Shown in pieces: positions 8,798 to 20,311 of a stretch of DNA of 64,000 nt. Under the pieces are notes generated by a model that made no database searches, had not been told where the DNA came from, and saw nothing but the letters and a program-made list of their open reading frames with translations. Source of the DNA: Mycolicibacterium rhodesiae JS60 (GTDB taxonomy: Bacteria; Actinomycetota; Actinomycetes; Mycobacteriales; Mycobacteriaceae); the NCBI GenBank assembly GCA_000230935.2, contig AGIQ01000001.1, positions 310,001 through 374,000 of the forward strand, in the 5' to 3' direction. The translations under genes were made by a program, and so were the position numbers. Each line of letters begins with the position of its first letter. The stretch's first letter is position 1.

Positions 8798-9793
8798 ATG
8801 GATTTCTCCGGGCTCGCCCGGCCGGCCGCGGCTCTGCTAGATGGCGTGCTGGACCGGGCTTTCGTCGGCTATACCAAGATCGGCTCGGGCCTGCGCAAGC
8901 AGTGGTGGGCGGCCGACGCCGGACCGCAGGCGTTGCTGGGCAAGCGGGTGCTGATCACCGGGGCGACCGCGGGAATCGGCCTGGCGATGGCGCGGTCATT
9001 CGCCGGACTCGGTGCGGGAGTGCACCTGCTGGGCCGCAACCCGGAGAAGGTGGACCGCTGCGCGGCCATGATCCGCGACGACGTCGCCGGCGCCCACGTC
9101 GTGGCCGAAGTGTGCGACGTCTCCGATCTGGACGCGGTGCGGCAGTGGACGGCCGACTTCGCCAACCGGGTGCCCGCGCTGAACGGATTGGTGCACAACG
9201 CCGGGCTGATGCCCAAGGACCGGATCCTCACGCGCGAGGGCCACGAAGTGCAGCTGGCCACCCACGTGCTCGGCCCGCACCTGATCACCGAGCGCCTGCT
9301 GCCGCTGCTTCGGGCGGCGGGCGGGGCATCGGTGGTGTTCGTGTCCTCCGGCGGCATGTACAGCTCGCCGCTGGTGGTCGACGATCTGGAATACCGGCGC
9401 GGCTACAACGGGGTGCGGGCGTACGCGCGCACCAAGAAGATGCAAGTCGTGCTCGCCGATTCGTGGTCGCGGCGGCTGGCGGGTACCGAGATCCGGGTGG
9501 AGAGCATGCATCCCGGCTGGGTCGACACCCCCGGGGTCGCGCAGTATCTGCCGCGTTTTCGCGCCGTCACCCGACCGCTGCTGCGCGATGTGGCCGATGG
9601 TGCCGACACCGCGGTGTGGCTGGTGGCCACCCGGCCGGAGTCCAAGGCGGGGCACTTCTGGCATGACCGCAGCCAGCGGCCGACGACGTTCGGATGGCAG
9701 CGCCACGAGAACCCGATCAAGGTGCGCCGCTTCCTCGAGCAGGTCAGCCGGCTGACCGGGACGTCGGAATCCTGGTCGGGCCTGCGCGCCTAG
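8798..9793 (+). CDS. Short-chain dehydrogenase/reductase, DHRS-like
   Basis: 331 residues. The Rossmann motif TGATAGIG is at about residues 53-60, followed by NAGLM, the catalytic VSSGG Ser region and the YARTK pair (Tyr/Lys). A roughly 45-residue N-terminal extension and a basic C-terminal tail are typical of the retinol dehydrogenase-like, membrane-associated SDR group. The substrate is probably lipophilic but not determined. It lies 18 bp after the TetR gene, so co-transcription is likely, and overlaps relZ by 4 bases at the 3' ends. Confidence 0.88.
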   Translation: MDFSGLARPAAALLDGVLDRAFVGYTKIGSGLRKQWWAADAGPQALLGKRVLITGATAGIGLAMARSFAGLGAGVHLLGRNPEKVDRCAAMIRDDVAGAHVVAEVCDVSDLDAVRQWTADFANRVPALNGLVHNAGLMPKDRILTREGHEVQLATHVLGPHLITERLLPLLRAAGGASVVFVSSGGMYSSPLVVDDLEYRRGYNGVRAYARTKKMQVVLADSWSRRLAGTEIRVESMHPGWVDTPGVAQYLPRFRAVTRPLLRDVADGADTAVWLVATRPESKAGHFWHDRSQRPTTFGWQRHENPIKVRRFLEQVSRLTGTSESWSGLRA

Positions 9794-11508
9794 TCGGGAT
9801 CGGGCGCTAACCGCCGCAGGCGGGTCTGCAGCAGCGACACCCGATGCTCGTTGCCGGCCAGGCCGACGTAGCGGTCGGCGAACGCGGCCAGCAGGGCGTC
9901 GTCCAAGCGCCGCACGGCACCCGCCGGGAAGCGGTAATCCATTTTTTCGTTGACGGCGTCGGTGTCGAGGTTGGTCAACAGCTCCTCGAGGGCGTCGAGG
10001 GTCAGGATGCAGAGCTCACCGAGCAACGTGGAGATCCATGCATAGTGCTCGGTGCGGGACCAGCCTGCTTCGGGGAAGCGGTGGCCCAGGTAGGTGGCCA
10101 GTACCGGCGCGGAAATGCCTGCGCCCGCGGCGGTCGGGGTGTGGTCGTCGGCCATCGACGCCCGCAGGCGCTCACGGATCTCGGTGAATTCCCGGTCGGC
10201 CAACTCGAGCAGCCCCGCCGCCAGCGTGAACCGGCGGTCGAGTTCCGGCGCGTCCCGTTCGGGAACAGTGCCCTTGTAGCGAATGTCGTGTTCGAACTCC
10301 GCCCACGCGTGCTGCAGAACGGTGCGCACCTGCACCGACGCCGGCTGCGGTTCACCCTCGATCGTGACCAGCAGGTGACGGCTCGCATATCCCCAGCGGC
10401 CCTCACGCGCGGTGACCTGCCCCATGTCCAGGTCGGCAAGGACCTCCAGTTCCTCGGACAGCACGGTGCCCACCGCGGTCACGTCCTCGCGCAGGTAGGT
10501 GATGACCCGCACGCCGACCTGGTCGGTGATCTCGGTCGCCGGGTCGGTGTAGATCCGCTGGCCGTGGATGCTGCGATCGGCCTTGGCCGCGAAGGACGCG
10601 ACGCTCTTGGTGCGGGCCGTCACGCTGAGGTAGTTGATGCCGGCGTCGTCCAGGAGCCGTTTGATCAACGCCAGGTAGTGCTCGGTGGTGGCGATCAGGG
10701 CGGGGCGCTGTTCGGCGTAGCGCGCGACGGCCTCGCCCACGACGCCGGGCGTCGGTTCGGGCGGTGCGGGTGTGAGGTCGGCCGGCAGCGTCGGCGTCAC
10801 GATGTAGCCGCTGGCGAAGTCCCCGTAGGTAGTCACCGAGGCGGGCCGTCGCGTCGCGTACAGCCCGACGTAGGCGCACACCACCGCGTCGACCGGATCT
10901 TCGGCGCGCCGTAGATCGCTCTTGCGTTGCGCATTCTCGACGGCACTGCGCATTTCGATCCACGTGGGGTTGTCGCCGACCCGAAGGGGCACCGCCGCCT
11001 GTGCGAGCCGTTCGATCTCGTCCATCAGCCGCAGCAATTCGGTGCGCAGTTGTGCCAGGGTGCGACCCTGTTTGTGCTTGTACTTCAGCGTGCGGCCGAG
11101 GCGGAACAACACCACTGTGGCCGGATGTGGGTAGACCTCGATGGCCCGCCGGGCTGCCCTCGATTGGGGGTCCATGTCCAGCCCGAGTGCGCCTGCGATG
11201 CGGGCGCCGCGCGGCGTGCCGGCGAATTCGGGCTTTCCCGTGTTGGACGGGTGCGCGCCGGCCTCGAACTTGGCGAAGTCGCGGTTCAGGTCCGTTTCAC
11301 AGCCCCGCTGTCCGCTCGGGTTGGTCACCACCAGCGGAGCGTCGATGGCGACCAGACAAGGCCCGTCGAGGTAGGGCGCAAGCTGCGCGAGGATGCTCGA
11401 ATCGTCTTGGGCGGTAGCGATATGAACGAGCCTGCCGTCGTCGTCGAGTACCGCGACTCCGGTGGGCTTGCGCTCACCCCAGGCCAGATCCAGGCCGACA
11501 AAGTGCAT
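9790..11508 (-). CDS. relZ: RelZ: RNase HII-like (DUF429) / small alarmone synthetase fusion
   Basis: 572 residues. Residues 1-225 are a DUF429 RNase H-fold domain with acidic residues at GLDLAWG (Asp7), AIDAPL (Asp56), EVYPHP (Glu124) and EDPVDAVVC (Asp204/207). A Pro-rich linker (about 240-258) leads to a RelA/SpoT synthetase domain (about 285-415) with TRTKSVASFAAK, DQVGVRVITY, GYASRHL and VQVRTVLQHAWAEFEHDIRYK. The last 150 residues are helical. This is the architecture of M. smegmatis RelZ (MS_RHII-RSD), which has RNase HII activity and makes (p)ppGpp/pGpp. No hydrolase domain is present. Divergent from purB with a 40-bp gap. Confidence 0.9.
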   Translation of the reverse strand: MHFVGLDLAWGERKPTGVAVLDDDGRLVHIATAQDDSSILAQLAPYLDGPCLVAIDAPLVVTNPSGQRGCETDLNRDFAKFEAGAHPSNTGKPEFAGTPRGARIAGALGLDMDPQSRAARRAIEVYPHPATVVLFRLGRTLKYKHKQGRTLAQLRTELLRLMDEIERLAQAAVPLRVGDNPTWIEMRSAVENAQRKSDLRRAEDPVDAVVCAYVGLYATRRPASVTTYGDFASGYIVTPTLPADLTPAPPEPTPGVVGEAVARYAEQRPALIATTEHYLALIKRLLDDAGINYLSVTARTKSVASFAAKADRSIHGQRIYTDPATEITDQVGVRVITYLREDVTAVGTVLSEELEVLADLDMGQVTAREGRWGYASRHLLVTIEGEPQPASVQVRTVLQHAWAEFEHDIRYKGTVPERDAPELDRRFTLAAGLLELADREFTEIRERLRASMADDHTPTAAGAGISAPVLATYLGHRFPEAGWSRTEHYAWISTLLGELCILTLDALEELLTNLDTDAVNEKMDYRFPAGAVRRLDDALLAAFADRYVGLAGNEHRVSLLQTRLRRLAPDPD

Positions 11509-12991: not shown

Positions 12992-13951
12992 GTGAGATTG
13001 GCTGATATGCGTCCGCCGCCCGACGTGTTCGCGGCGGTGATGGCCACCGGCATTGTCTCGATCGCCGCCGCTGACCACGGTTATCGCTGGATCAGCCTGG
13101 GGTTGGCGGTGATTGCCGCGTGTGCTCTGCCGGTGCTTGTCGTCGTGTGTGCCCTCTCGTGGCGGCGGCACCCGCTGAATGCCGGCGACCCCGACGTGCT
13201 GTTGCGGTTGTTCACCTATGTGGCGGCCTGTGCGGTACTGGGGGCGCGGCTGGCCGAGTGGCGGGTTGTGCCGTGGGTGTTGGCCGTTCTGGCACTGCAG
13301 TTCTGGTTGACACTGGCGCCCATGGTGGTCCGGCGGATGTGGCGGAACCGCTGGACCGGACTGCGCGACCGTGCGCACGGTGCGTGGGAGCTGGCCAGTG
13401 TGGCTACGTCGGGGCTGGCGATTCTGTCCGCCGACCTGCGTTGGCTGTTCGGGGCGCTGCTGTTCTGGGTGCTGGCACTTCTGGTCTATGCCGTGATGAC
13501 CGCCCTCATTCTCTGGCGGGCTCTGCACGAACGGCTGGACCCCGGGGGCTTCGAACCCGACGGCTGGATCCTGATGGGTGGCCTGGCCATTGCGGCTCTG
13601 GCGGGCGATCACATCCACCGGGTGTGGGCCTCGGATGTGGTCGAAGCGGTCACCGTGGTCACCTGGGTGCTGGCGACACTGTGGATCCCGGTGTTGGTCT
13701 ACTTCGGCATCCGGCGGATCAACTCCGGGCCGGGTGCGTTGCGGTTCAGGGGTGTCTGGTGGGCGATGGTGTTCCCGCTCGGCATGTATTCGGCGGCGAC
13801 GTTCGCGGTGTCCCGGGAATCGGCGGTGGCGGCTCTTGCCACGGTGTCGCTGGTGTTCTTCTGGGTGGCCTTCGCAGGCTGGCTCACCGTGACCGTCGGC
13901 GCGGTGCTGAAGCTGCGGTCACATCACGGCGTGACCGGCGTCGACGGGTAG
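12992..13951 (+). CDS. TDT-family transporter (TehA/Mae1-like)
   Basis: 319 residues with about ten hydrophobic segments throughout. The opening PPDVFAAVMATGIVSIAA matches the conserved first helix of tellurite-resistance/dicarboxylate (TDT/SLAC1) channels, where a Phe-gated pore conducts anions. The substrate cannot be told from sequence. It begins 15 bp after purB (GTG 12992, alternatively ATG 13007), so it may be read through from purB. Its last 33 bases overlap the convergent SDR gene. Confidence 0.8.
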   Translation: MRLADMRPPPDVFAAVMATGIVSIAAADHGYRWISLGLAVIAACALPVLVVVCALSWRRHPLNAGDPDVLLRLFTYVAACAVLGARLAEWRVVPWVLAVLALQFWLTLAPMVVRRMWRNRWTGLRDRAHGAWELASVATSGLAILSADLRWLFGALLFWVLALLVYAVMTALILWRALHERLDPGGFEPDGWILMGGLAIAALAGDHIHRVWASDVVEAVTVVTWVLATLWIPVLVYFGIRRINSGPGALRFRGVWWAMVFPLGMYSAATFAVSRESAVAALATVSLVFFWVAFAGWLTVTVGAVLKLRSHHGVTGVDG

Positions 13952-14740
13952 GGCCACGCCGGTGATGTAGCGGGCTTTCGGACTGGCCAGCCACACAACG
14001 GCATTGGTGACGTCCTCCGCCTCGACGAAGGGGACCGGCAGCAGATTGGCCGACAATGCGGCGCCGTTGGTGTTCTCCTCGAATGTGCGCAGGGTGTGAT
14101 CGTTGAGAATCATCGGGGTACCGACTCCGCTGGGGTGCACGGTATTGACCCGGATATTGTGCTGGGCATAGGCATTGGCCGCCGAGCGCATCAGCCCGAC
14201 CACGCCGTGCTTGGCCGCGGCATAGGCGAACATCGCCGCGCTGCCGTCGCCGCCGCGGCCCACCAGCCCCTGTGCGGAACTGGTCAGGATGATCGAGCCG
14301 CCGCGCCCCTTGCGGATGATCGAAGGCACCGTCGCCACGATCGTGTGCCACACGCCGCCCAGGTTGGTATCGACGATGTCGCGGTACACCTGCTCGTCGA
14401 CCGGATCTTTGAGCCCGATGGCCACCACTCCGGCGTTGGCCACGACGATGTCGATATCGCCGAGTGCGTCCACACCGCTCTGGACCCCGGTTCGTAAGGC
14501 GTCGAGGTCGCGGACGTCGGCGACCACCGGCACGATTCGCCGGCCCTGGGCCTCGACCAGCCGGACGGTCTCGTCGAGATCGTCCTTGGTGCCCAGCGGA
14601 TACGGGATCGAGTCGATATCGGCGCAGCGGTCGATCGCGATGATATCGGCGCCCTCGGCGGCCAGTGCCACGGCGTGGCTCCTGCCCTGACCGCGGGCGG
14701 CGCCGGTGATGACGGCGACGGTGTCGATGAGCTCTGCCAC
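13919..14740 (-). CDS. Mycofactocin-coupled short-chain dehydrogenase
   Basis: 273 residues from GTG 14740. The N-terminal TGAARGQGRSHA motif, with a GQGRSH loop in place of the usual SSGIG-type end, is the hallmark of the SDR subfamily with tightly bound NAD and mycofactocin as external electron acceptor. The segment CADIDSIPYPLGTKDDL is also typical. Catalytic residues are visible as SSAQG and YAAAKHG. It likely oxidises a secondary or primary alcohol. It is divergent from the TetR gene (51-bp gap) at the distal end of the Rieske cluster and probably acts in the same catabolic route. Confidence 0.9.
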   Translation of the reverse strand: MAELIDTVAVITGAARGQGRSHAVALAAEGADIIAIDRCADIDSIPYPLGTKDDLDETVRLVEAQGRRIVPVVADVRDLDALRTGVQSGVDALGDIDIVVANAGVVAIGLKDPVDEQVYRDIVDTNLGGVWHTIVATVPSIIRKGRGGSIILTSSAQGLVGRGGDGSAAMFAYAAAKHGVVGLMRSAANAYAQHNIRVNTVHPSGVGTPMILNDHTLRTFEENTNGAALSANLLPVPFVEAEDVTNAVVWLASPKARYITGVALPVDAGHAVM

Positions 14741-14791
14741 GACGCGGACTCTAACCGATCCGGCCGCGACTGTGAGAAGCTTCCAACAGCG

Positions 14792-15436
14792 ATGGCGAAA
14801 CCCAAAGGTGCAGCGTCGGCCAACTCCTCGTTCCTCGGTCGGCCGGTCGGCGCCAACAGTGAAGAGACGAGGCGGCGGATCCTCGAGGCGACCATGCGCT
14901 GTGTCGCGGAGGTCGGCTACTCGAAGACGACGATTCGCGAGATCGCGCGTCAGGCGAAGATGACCAGCGGCAGTCTCTACCACTACTTCCCGAACAAGGC
15001 CGAGCTCGTCAAAGCGACGTTCGACGAGGTCGCGACCATCGCCGTGCCACGCTTGGAGCAGGCCGCCGGACAGAACGCCGCCACCCTCGACAAACTGATG
15101 GCCGTGCTCGACGAGAGCGTCCAGGTGATGCGGGATTACCCGCTGGCGGTCGCCTTCGACAGAGCCATCCGCGCGGAGAGCCCGCAGCATCTGCACCTTG
15201 CCGAGACCAGCGACACCCGGTTCGTCGCGCTGCGCAACCTGATCCGCGACATTCTCGAACAGGGCGTCCAGGACCAGGAACTGGGCCGCGGTGTGGACGT
15301 GGAGAGCGCGGCCAACGCCGTGTACATGGTCTTCCGGGGCTTGAACGAATACGCCGCCAGCGCACCGCCACCCGAGGAATACCTGGCCACCGTGGCCGCG
15401 CTCAAACAGCTTCTGCGCGGCCAGCTTTTCACCTAG
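14792..15436 (+). CDS. TetR-family regulator of the Rieske/GMC cluster (proposed)
   Basis: 214 residues from the ATG at 14792. The helix-turn-helix reads YSKTTIREIARQAKMTSGSLYHYFPNKAELV, a well-conserved TetR DNA-binding domain (about residues 20-65). The C-terminal half resembles the KstR2/TetR_C groups but is not diagnostic. It is divergent from the mycofactocin-type SDR and converges on the amidohydrolase end of the cluster, with a 4-base overlap. By position it is the obvious local regulator. The perfect inverted repeat before the Rieske gene is a plausible target; this link is inference. Confidence 0.88.
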   Translation: MAKPKGAASANSSFLGRPVGANSEETRRRILEATMRCVAEVGYSKTTIREIARQAKMTSGSLYHYFPNKAELVKATFDEVATIAVPRLEQAAGQNAATLDKLMAVLDESVQVMRDYPLAVAFDRAIRAESPQHLHLAETSDTRFVALRNLIRDILEQGVQDQELGRGVDVESAANAVYMVFRGLNEYAASAPPPEEYLATVAALKQLLRGQLFT

Positions 15437-16203
15437 AGCCGGTAGAACACCCGCGCGTTCGTCTCGAGAACCGATTCGGCATGCTCGCGGCCGACCGCAT
15501 CGACGACGCGATCGATGTCGCTGTCCTGGAACGGAATCGCCGCACGGGTCGACGGCAGGTCGCTGCCGAAGATCAGCGCTGCAGGGTTCACGCCGACGAT
15601 CGCGCGCATCAGGGCGTCGGGGTCGGTCACGCTGATCCGCCCGGCGAGGGCGTCTCCTTCGCCTCCGGCGAATCGGGTTGCCTTGACCACGGTTCCGGCC
15701 TCTACCAGGCGCAGCAGCGGTCCGGTGTCGTCCGACATCGCCAGGTGGTCGATGCTCACCTGCGGCAGGGCGGCCAGTGTGGCCTCCAGCTCGGGCAGGT
15801 CGGCGGCGTCGAGATAGAACTCGGAATGCCAGCCGGCGACCTCGTGCACACGTCGCGCCAGGGTGTCGACGTGGTCCGAAGTGGCCGACCCGCCGCGATA
15901 CAGGTTGAAGCGCACTGCGCGGACACCGGCGCGATCCAACGCCAGGATGTCGTCGTCGGCCGTGTCGACGGGAATCTGCGTGACCCCCACGAAGCCCGGA
16001 CCCAGCTGTGCCAGAGCGTCTTTCAGATACTCCTGGTCGAAGCCCTGAAATGAGCCGCTGACCACTGCGCCGCCCGTGACGTGTAGTGCGCCGACACGTT
16101 GCAGGTAGTCGGCGGCGGTGAACGAATCAGGCAGGTAACCGTTGTTGGGCACCAACGGAAATCGGGAATCGATGATGTGGAAGTGCGCGTCGAAGACGTT
16201 CAT
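15433..16203 (-). CDS. Amidohydrolase-family (PF04909-like) metal-dependent hydrolase
   Basis: 256 residues. It opens with FDAHFHIID, the HxH metal site of the TIM-barrel amidohydrolase_2 family, and has IDHLAMS (second-half His) and FGSDLPST (Asp ligand) in the expected order. Family members include lactonases such as 2-pyrone-4,6-dicarboxylate hydrolase and decarboxylases of aromatic acids. It is the last gene of the minus-strand operon and its start overlaps the GMC stop by 4 bases (ATGA-type coupling). A role in hydrolysing or decarboxylating an oxidised intermediate is inferred. Confidence 0.88.
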   Translation of the reverse strand: MNVFDAHFHIIDSRFPLVPNNGYLPDSFTAADYLQRVGALHVTGGAVVSGSFQGFDQEYLKDALAQLGPGFVGVTQIPVDTADDDILALDRAGVRAVRFNLYRGGSATSDHVDTLARRVHEVAGWHSEFYLDAADLPELEATLAALPQVSIDHLAMSDDTGPLLRLVEAGTVVKATRFAGGEGDALAGRISVTDPDALMRAIVGVNPAALIFGSDLPSTRAAIPFQDSDIDRVVDAVGREHAESVLETNARVFYRL

Positions 16204-17762
16204 GTGGCGGCTTGGATGAAGTCAGCACAGCGTTCGCCGACCATGATCGCCGGAGCGTTGGTGTTGGCCCGGGGGATGCACGGGAACACCGACGCGTCGG
16301 CCACCCGCAAGCCGTCGACGCCACGCACTTTCAGCTTTTCGTCCAGGACGCTGCCCGCATCGGTGCCCATCGCCGCCGAGCAGGCGGGGTGGCCGGTGGT
16401 TGCCACCGAACTGCGCACCCACGCCTCGATCTGAGCATCGGTGACCACGTCGGGACCGGGGTTCAGTTCGGTGGTGATGACCGAGCCGAATGGCTCGGCG
16501 GCGACGATCTCCCGAGTGCGACGCACCACCCGGACGAACGCTTGCACATCGTCAGGATGGGCCAGGGTGTTCAGCCGGATCTCCGGTGCGTCACGGGGAT
16601 CCGCCGACTGGGCCAGCACCGTGCCGCGGCTCTTCGGCGTCCAGTACGACTGCAGCACCGAGGACGCACGGCGCAGTTCGCGCTCCATCGCGGCGAGGTT
16701 GACGTAGCTGGGGGAGTGGATCAACTGGAAGTCCGGTGCCGGCAGGTCCGGGTGCGACCGGATGTGCGCGAGGGCTTCCATCGCGTTGCTGGTCATCTTG
16801 CCGGTTCGGCGAAACACCCAGCGCAGCAACCACTGCGGCTTCTGCGCATCGGAGAGTCCGACGAAGCCGGGATGGACGTCCCAGCTCATCGCTGTCGCGG
16901 GGTGGTCGGTGAGATTGGTTCCCACCCTGGGGCTTTCGGCGATCGGTACGATACCGATGGCACGCAGATGGTCGGCCGCCCCGATGCCGGACAGCTGTAA
17001 CAGCTGAGGTGTCCCGTACGCGCCTGCCGAGAGGATCACCTCGCGGTTCGCGCCGGCGATCACCCGCTGTCCCTTGCGGTCGTACTCCACGGCGATCACC
17101 CGGCGGTCGCGGATCACCACCCGGTGCACGAGGGCTCCGGTGAGCACGGTGAAGTTCGGGCGGCGCCGTGCCGGGCGAAGATACGCCCGCGCGGTGTTCC
17201 AGCGCTGGCCCTTCCACACCGTCACCGGCGCGATGGACGTCCCGTCGAGATCCGGTCCGCCGAGGTCCTCGTTCGCGGAGACACCCGCGGCCCTGGCTGC
17301 CGAAATCCAGCGGGTGGAGGTGACATCGGGCTCGGCCAGCCGGGTCACGCGCACCGGTCCCGAGGTGCCGTGTGCCGGGCCGCCGAGATAGTGCGACTCG
17401 ATGCGGCGGAACACCGGCTCGACATCGGACCAACCCCAGCCGGGCAACTGCCAACCGTCGTAGTCGAGCTGGGTGCCCCGCACCCACACCATCGCGTTCA
17501 TCGAACTGGTGCCGCCCAGCACCCGGCCGCGGGGTTGTGGAATGACACGGTCGTCGCACGCCGGTTCGGGGACCGAACGGTAGTCCCAGTCGGTCGGGCC
17601 GCCCATCTGCGCGGCGAAGGCCAGCGGTGCCCGGACCGTCAACCGCCGATCGGACCCGCCGGCTTCCAGCAGCAGGACGCGCGATGTTCCGGCTGCCAGG
17701 CGGCCGGCCAGCGCACAGCCCGCCGAGCCGGCGCCGATCACGATGTAGTCGTAGTCGGGCAC
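16200..17762 (-). CDS. GMC-family FAD-dependent oxidoreductase
   Basis: 520 residues from GTG 17762, whose first base is the last base of the ferredoxin stop codon. The FAD-binding VIGAGSAGCALAGRL and LLLEAGG are at the N-terminus. Both GMC signatures are visible (GRVLGGTSSMNAMVWVRG near 82 and SAGAYGTPQLLQLSG near 250). The catalytic His lies in TTGHPACSAAMG, and NTNAPAIMVGER ends the domain. The family oxidises alcohols such as choline or long-chain alcohols. Here it likely oxidises the product of the Rieske enzyme or a pathway alcohol; the substrate is unknown. Confidence 0.92.
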   Translation of the reverse strand: MPDYDYIVIGAGSAGCALAGRLAAGTSRVLLLEAGGSDRRLTVRAPLAFAAQMGGPTDWDYRSVPEPACDDRVIPQPRGRVLGGTSSMNAMVWVRGTQLDYDGWQLPGWGWSDVEPVFRRIESHYLGGPAHGTSGPVRVTRLAEPDVTSTRWISAARAAGVSANEDLGGPDLDGTSIAPVTVWKGQRWNTARAYLRPARRRPNFTVLTGALVHRVVIRDRRVIAVEYDRKGQRVIAGANREVILSAGAYGTPQLLQLSGIGAADHLRAIGIVPIAESPRVGTNLTDHPATAMSWDVHPGFVGLSDAQKPQWLLRWVFRRTGKMTSNAMEALAHIRSHPDLPAPDFQLIHSPSYVNLAAMERELRRASSVLQSYWTPKSRGTVLAQSADPRDAPEIRLNTLAHPDDVQAFVRVVRRTREIVAAEPFGSVITTELNPGPDVVTDAQIEAWVRSSVATTGHPACSAAMGTDAGSVLDEKLKVRGVDGLRVADASVFPCIPRANTNAPAIMVGERCADFIQAAT

Positions 17763-17953
17763 TAGCCTTCCGCGCTGATCGCGTGCTCGGGGCAGTCTCC
17801 CACGGCCTTGACGACGAGATCTCGGTACTGGTCCGGGATCTCGCCGAGCACCACTTCGGCATAGCCGTCCGGAGTCCAGGCGAAGACCTCTGCGCACGTC
17901 GACACGCAGTGGCCGTGCCCGGCGCAGCGGTCGGAATCGACAGCGGCCTTCAT
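17762..17953 (-). CDS. 3Fe-4S-type ferredoxin
   Basis: 63 residues, a typical length for actinobacterial P450/oxygenase ferredoxins. The cluster motif is CAGHGHC-x3-C with a distal CPEHAI. The second Cys of a 4Fe-4S motif is replaced by His (CxxHxxC), as in mycobacterial 3Fe-4S ferredoxins. It lies between the NTF2-fold protein and the GMC gene, so it is a likely electron donor to the Rieske oxygenase of the same operon. No dedicated ferredoxin reductase is present in the cluster. Confidence 0.92.
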   Translation of the reverse strand: MKAAVDSDRCAGHGHCVSTCAEVFAWTPDGYAEVVLGEIPDQYRDLVVKAVGDCPEHAISAEG

Positions 17954-17966
17954 CGGTCCCCAATCG

Positions 17967-18392
17967 TCAGATCTCGACACCCTCGTAGCTGGCGAGCATA
18001 TCGGGATCCGGCAGCGCCATTTGCAGATATACGTCGATGCGGGTGATCTTTCCCGCCGCGTCGAATTCGTACACCGACACCGAATTGACCGAGTTGCTGA
18101 ACGCACCGATTCTGCTGCGCTCTTCGAGCTCCAGGAACACCACATTGCCGACCTCGGTGACCCGCTTGAACTCCGAGTCCCACTCCGATGACGTCGCCCA
18201 GTTGGTCAGGAAGCTGACGTACTCGGCCCAGTTCATCACCTCTTTGAAATTGCCTACCCGGACGAAGTTCTCGGTGTCGATCAGCTCGGCCAGCGGCGCC
18301 CAGCTCTCGGTGGTGAAGCCCGGTTGCTTGGCCTCGTCGACCAACCGCTTCATCAGCGCGCTGTAATCGAGCACGGTCGCCGACAACGTCAT
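17967..18392 (-). CDS. NTF2-like (SnoaL-fold) protein 1
   Basis: 141 residues with the compact alpha+beta pattern of SnoaL/NTF2-fold proteins: an N-terminal helix, then strands including VVFLELEERSRIG and SVSVYEFDAAGKITRIDVYLQM, the usual final hairpin. The start codon overlaps the stop of the preceding gene by 1 base. Family members act as small hydrolases, isomerases, or as the beta subunit of Rieske dioxygenases. I cannot tell which role applies here. It is co-transcribed with the oxygenase. Confidence 0.8.
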   Translation of the reverse strand: MTLSATVLDYSALMKRLVDEAKQPGFTTESWAPLAELIDTENFVRVGNFKEVMNWAEYVSFLTNWATSSEWDSEFKRVTEVGNVVFLELEERSRIGAFSNSVNSVSVYEFDAAGKITRIDVYLQMALPDPDMLASYEGVEI

Positions 18393-18919
18393 CAGACGGT
18401 CAATCCCTCTTCAGCCAGCCGGCGCTCCAGTGCGTCGGTGTACTCGTGGGTGCCGTGGAATGGCCCATGCACGCCGATCGCGACATCGAGGAAGTCGCTG
18501 TACTCGCCGTTGACGTGGGTCTCCCAGCGCATGACTTCGCCGTCGTCGTTGGTGTCGACGAAACTGTATGAGTAGAAGCCCATTACGGTGCCGTCGGCCT
18601 TGTTGGTGCCCTGCCAGCGGGTCTTCATCACGAAGCCGTTGTCTGCCGCCCAGTGCCGGAAGTCGACGGGCTTCCAGTCCGGGAATCGCAGCGAGTACAC
18701 CTTGGCCTCCATCGTCGAGGCGCGGGCGGATTCTTCGGGGAACTCGCTGAGCTTGAAGGCTTCGTCGCCGGTGAAGTAGGGCGAGGCGTACATGCAGTCG
18801 GGATGGAACTTCCAGACCTCCACGAACTTTTCGCCGTCCTGCACACCCTGGCGCAGATAGGCGTCTCCGTAGGCATGAGCCATCCGGTTGTGCAGGGCAA
18901 TGCGTTCTTCGAGGTTCAC
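18392..18919 (-). CDS. NTF2-like (SnoaL-fold) protein 2, possible oxygenase beta subunit
   Basis: 175 residues from GTG 18919, chosen because GTGA overlaps the Rieske stop codon and AAAGGGA lies upstream. The sequence has an N-terminal helix (ERIALHNRMAHAYGDAY) and SnoaL-type strands (GFYSYSFVD, GEVMRWETHVNGEYSDFLDVAIG). Its size (about 160-180 residues) and place directly after the alpha subunit are what is expected of a ring-hydroxylating dioxygenase beta subunit, but its similarity to known ones is not evident to me. It could also be a hydratase or aldolase. Confidence 0.78.
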   Translation of the reverse strand: MNLEERIALHNRMAHAYGDAYLRQGVQDGEKFVEVWKFHPDCMYASPYFTGDEAFKLSEFPEESARASTMEAKVYSLRFPDWKPVDFRHWAADNGFVMKTRWQGTNKADGTVMGFYSYSFVDTNDDGEVMRWETHVNGEYSDFLDVAIGVHGPFHGTHEYTDALERRLAEEGLTV

Positions 18920-20268
18920 CGTGTTCCCTTTCCGGCCATCCACCGATCCAGTGTGTCGTGGAATTTGGCGACGACGACTTCTTCGGTCACCAGCATCAGG
19001 TGATCCAGACCCTGGTTGCGCAGGCCTGCCTGCTGTCGCTGCATCTGCTCGTAATCCTGTTGCAGCGCTTCGAAATACTTGTAGCTACCGGGTGTGTCGA
19101 CCTCGATCAGGTCTACCGTGAAGGCGTCGGCCATCTCCGGCGGCAGGTACATGTAGCTGGCCACGTGCCAGATGCACCGGTTGGGGTCGCCGTCGGGGTG
19201 CGGCATCGACAGGATCACATGACACTCGCCGGCCCGGATGGTCATCATGAAGTTGGGGAACAGGAACCAGCCGTGGTTGTCGCTCATCTGGGCGTCGGTC
19301 AGGCCGCTGACGTCCAGGCCCATCTCGGTCAGGTGCGCGCGGGTGGCCTTCTGCAGCAGCGTGCGCGCCGTGACACCGCCCGGAAAGTCGATGGACCCGT
19401 CGGCTGCGGTGTACTCCGTGACGAGCTCTTGGAAGCGCGGAATCACCGCGACCGTTCCCGGGAAGGTCTCGGGCAGAGCGAGTGTCCCCTCTACCTGTTT
19501 CTCGGGCGTCGCTCCGACGACCTCGAACGGCGCCATGGCGATGCCGTGGTTCTCGAAGAACTTGTAGCGCGTGGTCTCCGGCTGGATGTTGAGCACCGCC
19601 AGCAGTTGGGGGTGGACACCGTTGACGTGGTAGCCCTCGTTGAAGGCGTCCATCACCACTTTCCAGTTGCAGTCCAGCGCCTCGCGGACATTCATCACCG
19701 TCGACATCTGCTCGAGGTGGTATGGCTCGAGCGTCGCCATGGCCTCCTGGCCGAGCCAGTCCGCGAGCGGTGTGGCGCCGGGATCGGGGTTGAGGAAGAC
19801 GAACCCGCCGAAGGTGTCGACCGGTATCTCGATCAGGCCGCTCTCGCTCTTGTCCAGGGGGCCCGCCTGCGCTTCACGCAGCAGTCCCATGAGCTTGCCC
19901 TCGAGGTCGTAGGACCACAGGTGGTACTGACACAGGAATCCGCGCTTGGCGTTGCCGGTGCCCTGGCACAGGGCATTCCCGCGGTGCCTGCAGGCGTTGA
20001 CGAATCCGCGGAGCTTCTCGTCCTTGCCGCGCACGATGATGAAGGACTGGTCGTAGATCGTGTGGACTTTCCAGTCGCCTACCTTCGGCAGTTCGTCGGT
20101 GCGGCCGGCGACCTGCCAGGTCTTCATCCAGATCGCCGCCCGCTCGCGCTCGGCGTACTCGCGACAGCGGTAGCGGTCCGTTGAGATCCGCACATTGAAG
20201 CGGCCCGCTAGATCGTCGAGGCCGGGGGCGTGGTCAACCCACTCTCCGGGTAGCGCGGTTGACGTCAT
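18916..20268 (-). CDS. Rieske non-haem iron oxygenase, alpha subunit
   Basis: 450 residues from the ATG at 20268, which has AGAAGGATC upstream. The Rieske [2Fe-2S] centre is CRH (Cys93, His95) with CQYH (Cys113, His116), spaced by 17 residues. The mononuclear iron site is in DAFNEGYHVNGVHPQ (His214, His219), with the bridging Asp just before. This is the aromatic-ring-hydroxylating dioxygenase layout. It is the first gene of a six-gene minus-strand operon with two NTF2-fold proteins, a ferredoxin, a GMC oxidase and an amidohydrolase. A perfect inverted repeat lies 21 bp upstream. The substrate is unknown. Confidence 0.93.
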   Translation of the reverse strand: MTSTALPGEWVDHAPGLDDLAGRFNVRISTDRYRCREYAERERAAIWMKTWQVAGRTDELPKVGDWKVHTIYDQSFIIVRGKDEKLRGFVNACRHRGNALCQGTGNAKRGFLCQYHLWSYDLEGKLMGLLREAQAGPLDKSESGLIEIPVDTFGGFVFLNPDPGATPLADWLGQEAMATLEPYHLEQMSTVMNVREALDCNWKVVMDAFNEGYHVNGVHPQLLAVLNIQPETTRYKFFENHGIAMAPFEVVGATPEKQVEGTLALPETFPGTVAVIPRFQELVTEYTAADGSIDFPGGVTARTLLQKATRAHLTEMGLDVSGLTDAQMSDNHGWFLFPNFMMTIRAGECHVILSMPHPDGDPNRCIWHVASYMYLPPEMADAFTVDLIEVDTPGSYKYFEALQQDYEQMQRQQAGLRNQGLDHLMLVTEEVVVAKFHDTLDRWMAGKGTR

Positions 20269-20289: not shown

Positions 20290-20311
20290 ATTAATCAATC
20301 ATTTGATTAAT
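20290..20311. promoter_or_regulatory. Operator: ATTAATCAA-TCAT-TTGATTAAT
   Basis: A perfect 9-bp inverted repeat with a 4-bp spacer lies 21 bp upstream of the Rieske start. It is strikingly A/T-rich in GC-rich DNA. The symmetry and length fit a TetR-type operator overlapping the promoter of the operon. The TetR protein encoded at 14792-15436 is the natural candidate to bind it. Confidence 0.7.

Follow-up and report, generated by a model that had tools for sequence, protein, structure and literature searches.

The window examined here, a stretch of 64,000 nucleotides from Mycolicibacterium rhodesiae JS60, carries between purB and purC a gene cluster headed by a Rieske oxygenase (RO). Six genes lie on the minus strand: the catalytic subunit of the RO (18916-20268; 450 amino acids; PF00355 and PF00848); two proteins with a predicted NTF2 fold, namely N2 (18392-18919; 175 amino acids; nearest solved folds of the KstA15/SnoaL2 type) and N1 (17967-18392; 141 amino acids; nearest solved folds limonene epoxide hydrolase, LEH, and ketosteroid isomerase, KSI); a ferredoxin (17762-17953; 63 amino acids; Fer4_15); a choline-dehydrogenase-like GMC flavin oxidoreductase (16200-17762; 520 amino acids; PF00732 and PF05199, GMC_oxred_N/C); and a lactonase-like Amidohydrolase_2 protein (15433-16203; 256 amino acids; PF04909, Amidohydro_2). 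The junctions from RO to the amidohydrolase are overlaps of 4 and 1 bases, a 13-base gap and overlaps of 1 and 4 bases, so that the cluster is a co-transcribed-looking set. Alongside are a plus-strand gene for the predicted TetR-family regulator of the cluster (14792-15436; TetR_N) and, divergent from it at a distance of 51 bases, a minus-strand gene for a mycofactocin-coupled, carveol-dehydrogenase-like short-chain dehydrogenase/reductase (SDR; 13919-14740; 273 amino acids; TIGR03971). A predicted TetR operator, AATCAAATGATTGATT, was located on the minus strand at 20293..20308, 24 bases before the RO start codon. A first-pass annotation of this DNA had described six minus-strand genes coupled by overlaps or short gaps next to a TetR gene and a divergent SDR gene, and all eight were found at the positions given above.

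The suggestion made at that time, that these genes form a real functional unit, was borne out by the co-occurrence, rather than scatter, of RO, N1 and N2 across 198 genomes of the genus. Using identity limits of at least 60% (RO), 57% (N1) and 50% (N2), RO was found in 57 genomes, N1 in 56 and N2 in 51, with no genome having N1 or N2 but not RO; Fisher P values for co-occurrence with RO were 5.5e-49 for N1 and 4.9e-41 for N2, uncorrected for shared ancestry. Three RO genomes (G004, G052, G074) were counted from split matches, and weaker relatives were dropped beforehand, namely the RO of G117 at 42% and all lower, N1 relatives of 39-43% (G123 twice, G136, G148) and nine N2 hits of 28-34%. From 109 confirmed RO loci the best 80 were kept for locus counts, their genes being called by a simple caller, with some short genes and gene starts overlooked. 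In 78 of these best 80 loci N1 comes after RO, either immediately or with N2 in between (one exception ends where RO ends), and N2 is present in 54 of the locus stretches. When the loci were thinned to below 85% identity, 29 were left, with N1 in 28, N2 within the stretch in 17 and a P450 in 14. The arrangement of RO with N1 is not due to chance, and RO, N1 and N2 represent a real unit. N2 is at times separated from RO: of 51 genomes, the two lie within 3 kb in 36, 10-16 kb apart in eight, more than 100 kb apart in five and on different contigs in two. A sample of 298 genomes of the order, overlapping that of the genus, gave RO (E to 1e-90) in 13 and N1 at 60% or above in 13, with 12 shared; the exceptions were G123, with RO and no close N1, and G415, with N1 and no RO. 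The RO family extends to Rhodococcus, Nocardia, Actinomadura and Frankia. On plasmid records RO was found only below 60% identity (16 records) and N2 in none. Outside the purB-purC loci, identity to the window is about 57-72% for N1 and 60-72% for RO.

By alignment, the Rieske ligands of RO are C93, H95, C113 and H116 and its iron ligands H214, H219 and D405. All are invariant across the alignment of 81 members (the window plus 80 loci), which identifies the family as Rieske non-heme iron oxygenases, and the bridging residue, Glu211, is likewise found in 81 of 81. Among reference alpha subunits, the seven with an annotated beta gene adjoining (HcaE, two BphA1, NdoB and those of M. rufum, N. 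pentaromativorans and Rhodococcus BH4) all have a bridging Asp and form one clade (support 0.999), with RO outside it; YeaW and the remaining ROs of the reference alignment, none of which has an annotated beta gene, have a bridging Glu. By score, CntA is the closest of the solved ROs, and in it the bridging Glu205 is required according to the accessible part of PMC7948474; Glu211 of RO aligns with this residue, and F209 stands at CntA position 203, where the same part of that source places an aromatic residue in one subgroup of group V. RO has G212 and V215 in place of the Cys-x-x-Cys pair that the accessible portion of PMC10952381 reports next to the iron site in part of group V, and the score of RO against the GbcA model NF058607 is 124.7 bits for a cut-off of 670. 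Taking the Glu bridge and the clade position together, RO would be expected to work like a Glu-bridged oxygenase having no beta subunit, while its membership of group V is not established.

Neither N1 nor N2 has a Pfam match at E 0.001. Their AlphaFold2 models are confident, with mean pLDDT values of 90.9 (N1) and 89.2 (N2), and both matched NTF2-fold structures in structure searches. For N1, which the first-pass annotation had put forward as a possible hydrolase, the predicted fold is that of the LEH and KSI type, a model-based assignment which in itself fixes no reaction; in the N1 family (43 members), PF07858 gave weak matches in three (best E 0.038) and SnoaL_2 matched 18 (best E 0.00074). 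The near folds of N2, KstA15 and SnoaL2, are labelled polyketide enzymes. N1 also occurs away from RO. At 74% identity it stands alone in G065 (L131), with an FAD-binding-2 oxidoreductase, an alpha/beta hydrolase and, by eye, a flavin monooxygenase as neighbours; at 60% it is found in a catabolic-looking locus (L156) of G415, a genome which does not have this RO; and G123, whose RO-N2 locus has no N1, carries relatives at 37-38% in two P450-SDR loci. In three purB-purC loci (L019-L021), the RO shares only 74-80% identity with the ROs of the window and of L009-L018 while N2 is 91-98% identical to that of the other loci, and neither N2, N1, TetR, SDR nor GMC shows a split like that of RO. The RO of these loci seems to have been exchanged alone, or to be fast-changing. 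Together with the occurrence of N1 away from RO, this points to N1 being an enzyme more than a subunit.

The predicted operator AATCAANNGATTGATT lies before RO with 0-1 mismatches in all 12 aligned purB-purC upstream regions, which have otherwise diverged. Over the 80 loci, allowing up to three mismatches within 400 bases upstream, it was found in 21 of 21 loci with a window-type TetR (at least 48% identity to the window TetR over at least 120 residues) versus 3 of 59 others. For the three exceptions (L016, L061, L062) the contig stops no more than 5.7 kb past RO, and a TetR gene could be located beyond that point. The derivation of the motif left out nine of the 21 loci, which belong to other genera, namely Actinomadura, Rhodococcus, Actinocorallia, Nocardia and Frankia (L063, L065, L066, L068, L073, L074, L076, L083, L086). 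Two TetR/operator classes, AATCAANNGATTGATT and TATACATNNATGTATA, serve one RO family in these 80 loci: a second palindrome, TATACAT-NN-ATGTATA, was present in 55 of the 59 other loci and in none of the 21, a motif derived from the same loci in which it was counted, with up to two mismatches to any of three forms. Another TetR family is encoded beside RO in 52 of the 80 loci, including many of the 59. Of the 15 cases with N2 at least 10 kb from RO, 11 were read, and a TATACAT-type palindrome was found 51-112 bases before N2 in all 11, with 1-3 mismatches under a limit of three (0.65 chance hits expected in 13 loci, from shuffles which kept base content only); the strings at L121 and others are up to 3 of 14 places off consensus. 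As separated RO and N2 carry the same operator class, these sites give independent support for one pathway.

In the 7.28-Mb genome of the window strain, the site before RO is the only exact AATCAA-type operator. A one-mismatch copy of it on contig 29 (L175:5662) separates a TetR gene from an SDR gene, with an Amidohydro_2 gene, a second mycofactocin-like SDR gene and, by eye, ferredoxin and P450 genes nearby; judging from the string and its neighbours, this may be a second regulon member. For two-mismatch sites on C30 and C31, the genes that contain or adjoin them show no obvious connection. A shared operator was looked for in the TetR-SDR gap of the window, where no palindrome with 6-base arms was found; similar strings were seen, by eye only, in that gap in L010 and L017.

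The remaining genes of the cluster are less constant. Nineteen purB-purC loci were compared and 14 counted, L133 and L135-L138 being left out as the same genomes as L013, L018, L012, L014 and L009, judged by equal identities. The core RO-N2-N1-TetR-SDR was present in 14 of 14 distinct loci (with RO in two overlapping frames in L132, from G004), and tblastn found GMC in 12, the ferredoxin in ten and a complete amidohydrolase in seven, the latter being absent in five and partly deleted or broken in L011 and L134. L015 has none of the three. The steps of the GMC protein and the amidohydrolase would consequently be accessory. In L017 a P450 followed by a ferredoxin occupies the place of the window's ferredoxin, GMC and amidohydrolase genes, and the best matches of this P450, at 75-78% identity, are the P450s of other RO-N1 loci. 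A P450 is also the commonest gene after N1, directly following it in 33 of 78 loci, and GMC is found in only 10 of the best 80. Given the pair in L017 and the P450 after N1 elsewhere, the ferredoxin of the window is probably the remnant of a P450 pair, and GMC and the amidohydrolase would have been added to the window cluster. Four P450 paralogues occur elsewhere in the window genome, the best being 61% identical.

By its sequence the ferredoxin, with C10, H13, C16 and C54 followed by P, and a further C20, is of the 3Fe-4S type. The GMC protein has H458 and N502, which we take to be active-site residues; it scored 290.1 bits against MftG (TIGR03970, cut-off 387.45), 414.7 against BetA (TIGR01810, cut-off 732.1) and 478 on another choline dehydrogenase model, below both choline dehydrogenase cut-offs. 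The amidohydrolase has H7/H9/H153/D215, presumably with catalytic roles, and PDB matches to 2-pyrone-4,6-dicarboxylate hydrolases, and falls far below the 4-sulfomuconolactone hydrolase model NF042924 (30.2 bits, cut-off 500). The SDR is of the mycofactocin type, as originally annotated, with 356.5 bits against a TIGR03971 cut-off of 300, and of its nine PDB matches at E 1e-50, six bear the name carveol dehydrogenase. mftC (TIGR03962), the only mft gene searched for, is present in the window genome (655 bits, cut-off 265).

The first-pass annotation had placed the cluster in a gap in the M. tuberculosis-like gene order, and eight of eight other genomes checked, which lack it there, agree with its being inserted between purB and purC. 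In about 1.5 kb on each side of purC in these genomes (five with no RO, three with RO elsewhere), RO never follows the gene before purC; in its place are a P450 (three), a SLAC1-type transporter (two), purB (one) or nothing assignable (two). Names such as cyp126 and Rv0779c for genes between purB and purC are those of M. tuberculosis. In the window a SLAC1-type membrane protein (12992-13951) adjoins purB, where several relatives have a P450 that the window does not have. Further along, a single minus-strand ORF (9790-11508) joins a DUF429 to a RelA/SpoT domain.

In several mycobacteria N2 is found in a larger catabolic-looking cluster, which in L078, L079 and L082 also includes RO-N1. This cluster holds AveC-like, CbbQ/NorQ-type AAA and VWA proteins, an F420-dependent oxidoreductase, one or two more Glu-bridged ROs, an Amidohydro_1 protein and a PaaE/GbcB-like reductase, a type which is a candidate electron donor. 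An unassigned protein of ~120 amino acids also follows the further ROs there (L079:1908-20653, L119-L124). A partial version, 39-57% identical and comprising CMD, a second RO, a small protein and Amidohydro_1, is present on contig 29 of the window genome (L144, about 900.1-903.6 kb). Neighbours typical of catabolism, namely CMD, aldehyde dehydrogenase, acyl-CoA genes and F420 enzymes, are found at other RO loci.

With a probability which we place at roughly 0.45, the window holds a TetR-controlled catabolic operon around a Glu-bridged Rieske oxygenase acting on a hydrophobic ring compound. An inducer would lift TetR from the predicted operator before RO, and RO, as an alpha-only oligomer served by a reductase encoded elsewhere, would likely hydroxylate the ring compound. 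N1 (LEH/KSI-like) and N2 (SnoaL2-like) would act as enzymes or ligand carriers for the hydroxylated product rather than as beta subunits, the possible reactions being isomerisation, dehydration or hydrolysis. The SDR would oxidise a secondary alcohol through mycofactocin and, in strains keeping both, GMC would oxidise an alcohol and the amidohydrolase open a lactone. Since ferredoxin, GMC and amidohydrolase here replace the P450, the window version would enter the pathway from an alcohol. An alicyclic compound resembling a terpenoid or a steroid may be offered as a weak guess at the substrate.

Several points weigh against this interpretation. The substrate guess draws only on family names, and the invariant residues of N1 do not, by eye, fall on the LEH and KSI catalytic sets. 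Neither a reductase gene nor a ring-cleavage gene is present in the cluster, and therefore neither the electron route nor full degradation is seen. A structural subunit would likewise be expected to co-occur strictly with RO, as N1 does. It is doubtful, though conceivable, that the cluster represents an undescribed actinobacterial module in which a Glu-bridged RO hydroxylates an alicyclic skeleton, two dedicated NTF2-fold enzymes rearrange the product, two TetR/operator systems are interchangeable and the P450/GMC swap follows the use of a hydrocarbon or an alcohol as substrate.

Annotation frequently labels Rieske oxygenases as aromatic dioxygenases, and oxygenase beta subunits also have an NTF2 fold. 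The earlier proposal that the 175-residue N2 is such a beta subunit agrees with the data in size and fold class only. A classical two-subunit ring-hydroxylating dioxygenase, with RO as alpha, N2 as a diverged beta and the ferredoxin feeding RO, would fit the sizes of 450 and 175 amino acids, the fold and the order of alpha gene then NTF2 gene, but we regard it as very improbable. The bridge of RO is Glu and not Asp and RO falls outside the beta-coupled clade; Ring_hydroxyl_B matched 0 of 55 N2 and 0 of 43 N1 members (0 of 98 together) at E up to 1; hhalign with seven beta subunits gave probabilities of 0.03% for N2 and 0.04% for N1, below 0.1% in both cases; N2 lies at least 10 kb from RO, or on another contig, in 15 of 51 genomes and within the stretch in only 17 of 29 dereplicated loci; and the ferredoxin is missing in 4 of 14 loci. 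No beta subunit was among the fold matches listed for N1 and N2, to which we attach no weight. The proposal that N1 (and N2) belong to a new kind of RO complex, as non-catalytic accessory subunits or as partners in substrate channelling, is rather unlikely; it draws on the presence of N1 in 56 of 57 RO genomes, with none outside them at the identity limit, and on the like rate at which N1 and RO diverge, and is opposed by the occurrence of N1 away from RO (L131, L156 and two G123 loci), by the RO-N2 locus with no N1 in G123 and by the apparent exchange of RO alone in L019-L021, with N1 and N2 kept.

A quaternary-amine system of the CntA/GbcA (group V) kind, working with a choline-dehydrogenase-like GMC, is suggested by CntA as nearest solved RO, by the Glu bridge, by F209 at the pi-cation place Y203 and by the 478 bits of GMC on a choline dehydrogenase model. 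We nevertheless consider it improbable, as RO is far below the GbcA cut-off and GMC below both choline dehydrogenase cut-offs, the Cys-x-x-Cys pair is replaced (G212, V215), FxE is also found in ROs of other clusters, and GMC is uncommon among the best RO loci. A biosynthetic or lipid-tailoring cluster, in which RO, P450/GMC and SnoaL-like proteins modify the strain's own terpenoid or polyketide, is unlikely: the folds of KstA15 and SnoaL2 among the nearest to N2, the operon having no ring-cleavage gene and the stable chromosomal place in 14 loci speak for it, whereas the patchy distribution (57 of 198), the loss or decay of accessory genes, the predicted TetR control and the catabolism-typical neighbours in other loci speak against it. 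Returning to the catabolic operon, this RO family is common in the sampled genus and is accompanied by two proteins of NTF2 type that escape recognition by Pfam. With the data on co-occurrence and on the operators, it becomes possible to test N1 and N2 as the missing enzymes of a catabolic pathway in which mycofactocin would be used, and the predicted operator provides the basis for a reporter to screen inducers, and hence the substrate.

The exact combination had not been recognised in the first-pass annotation, and a full-text literature search, mostly excluding subscription papers, likewise returned no matching pathway; RO-N1-N2 is apparently an undescribed branch of oxygenase systems. The tert-butyl alcohol/2-hydroxyisobutyrate pathway (Rieske oxygenase and GMC) came into consideration through the B12 mutase found in L022-type loci, and was set aside, as the accessible part of PMC7176365 mentions no NTF2 protein and the window cluster has no mutase. 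For the Mycolicibacterium ibuprofen genes, the portion of PMC11347016 available discusses a dioxygenase alpha-beta pair, and no match to the window set was seen in it.

Group V (CntA/YeaW, GbcA, OxyBAC) shares with RO the bridging Glu and, in one subgroup, the aromatic residue two positions before it, and yeaW, like the Glu-bridged RO, has no beta gene adjoining; it differs in the Cys-x-x-Cys pair and in the GbcA score, and the window cluster differs from it in having two NTF2 partners and no adjoining reductase. The alpha3beta3 dioxygenases (HcaEF, BphA1A2, NdoBC) have the same Rieske and iron motifs and, as the next gene, an NTF2-fold protein of the size seen here, but their bridge is Asp, RO is outside their clade and N2 is unrelated to beta in sequence. 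A parallel RO-NTF2 architecture exists in sphingomonads: on plasmid pNL2 of Novosphingobium aromaticivorans (148-160 kb; L155), three Glu-bridged ROs lie beside NTF2, P450, SDR and FAD oxidoreductase genes, the ROs being interleaved with NTF2 and VOC genes. The matched RO, however, is 29.6% identical to that of the window and the NTF2 proteins are unrelated to N1 and N2 by profile comparison. The SDR resembles mycofactocin SDRs of the carveol dehydrogenase type, scoring above the family cut-off and close to solved chains so named, and differs from them in being placed beside a Rieske oxygenase. For N1 and N2, the NTF2-fold hydroxysteroid dehydratases Hsh2/BaiE, as described in the accessible part of PMC12175502, provide a purely functional precedent for this fold in a catabolic context.

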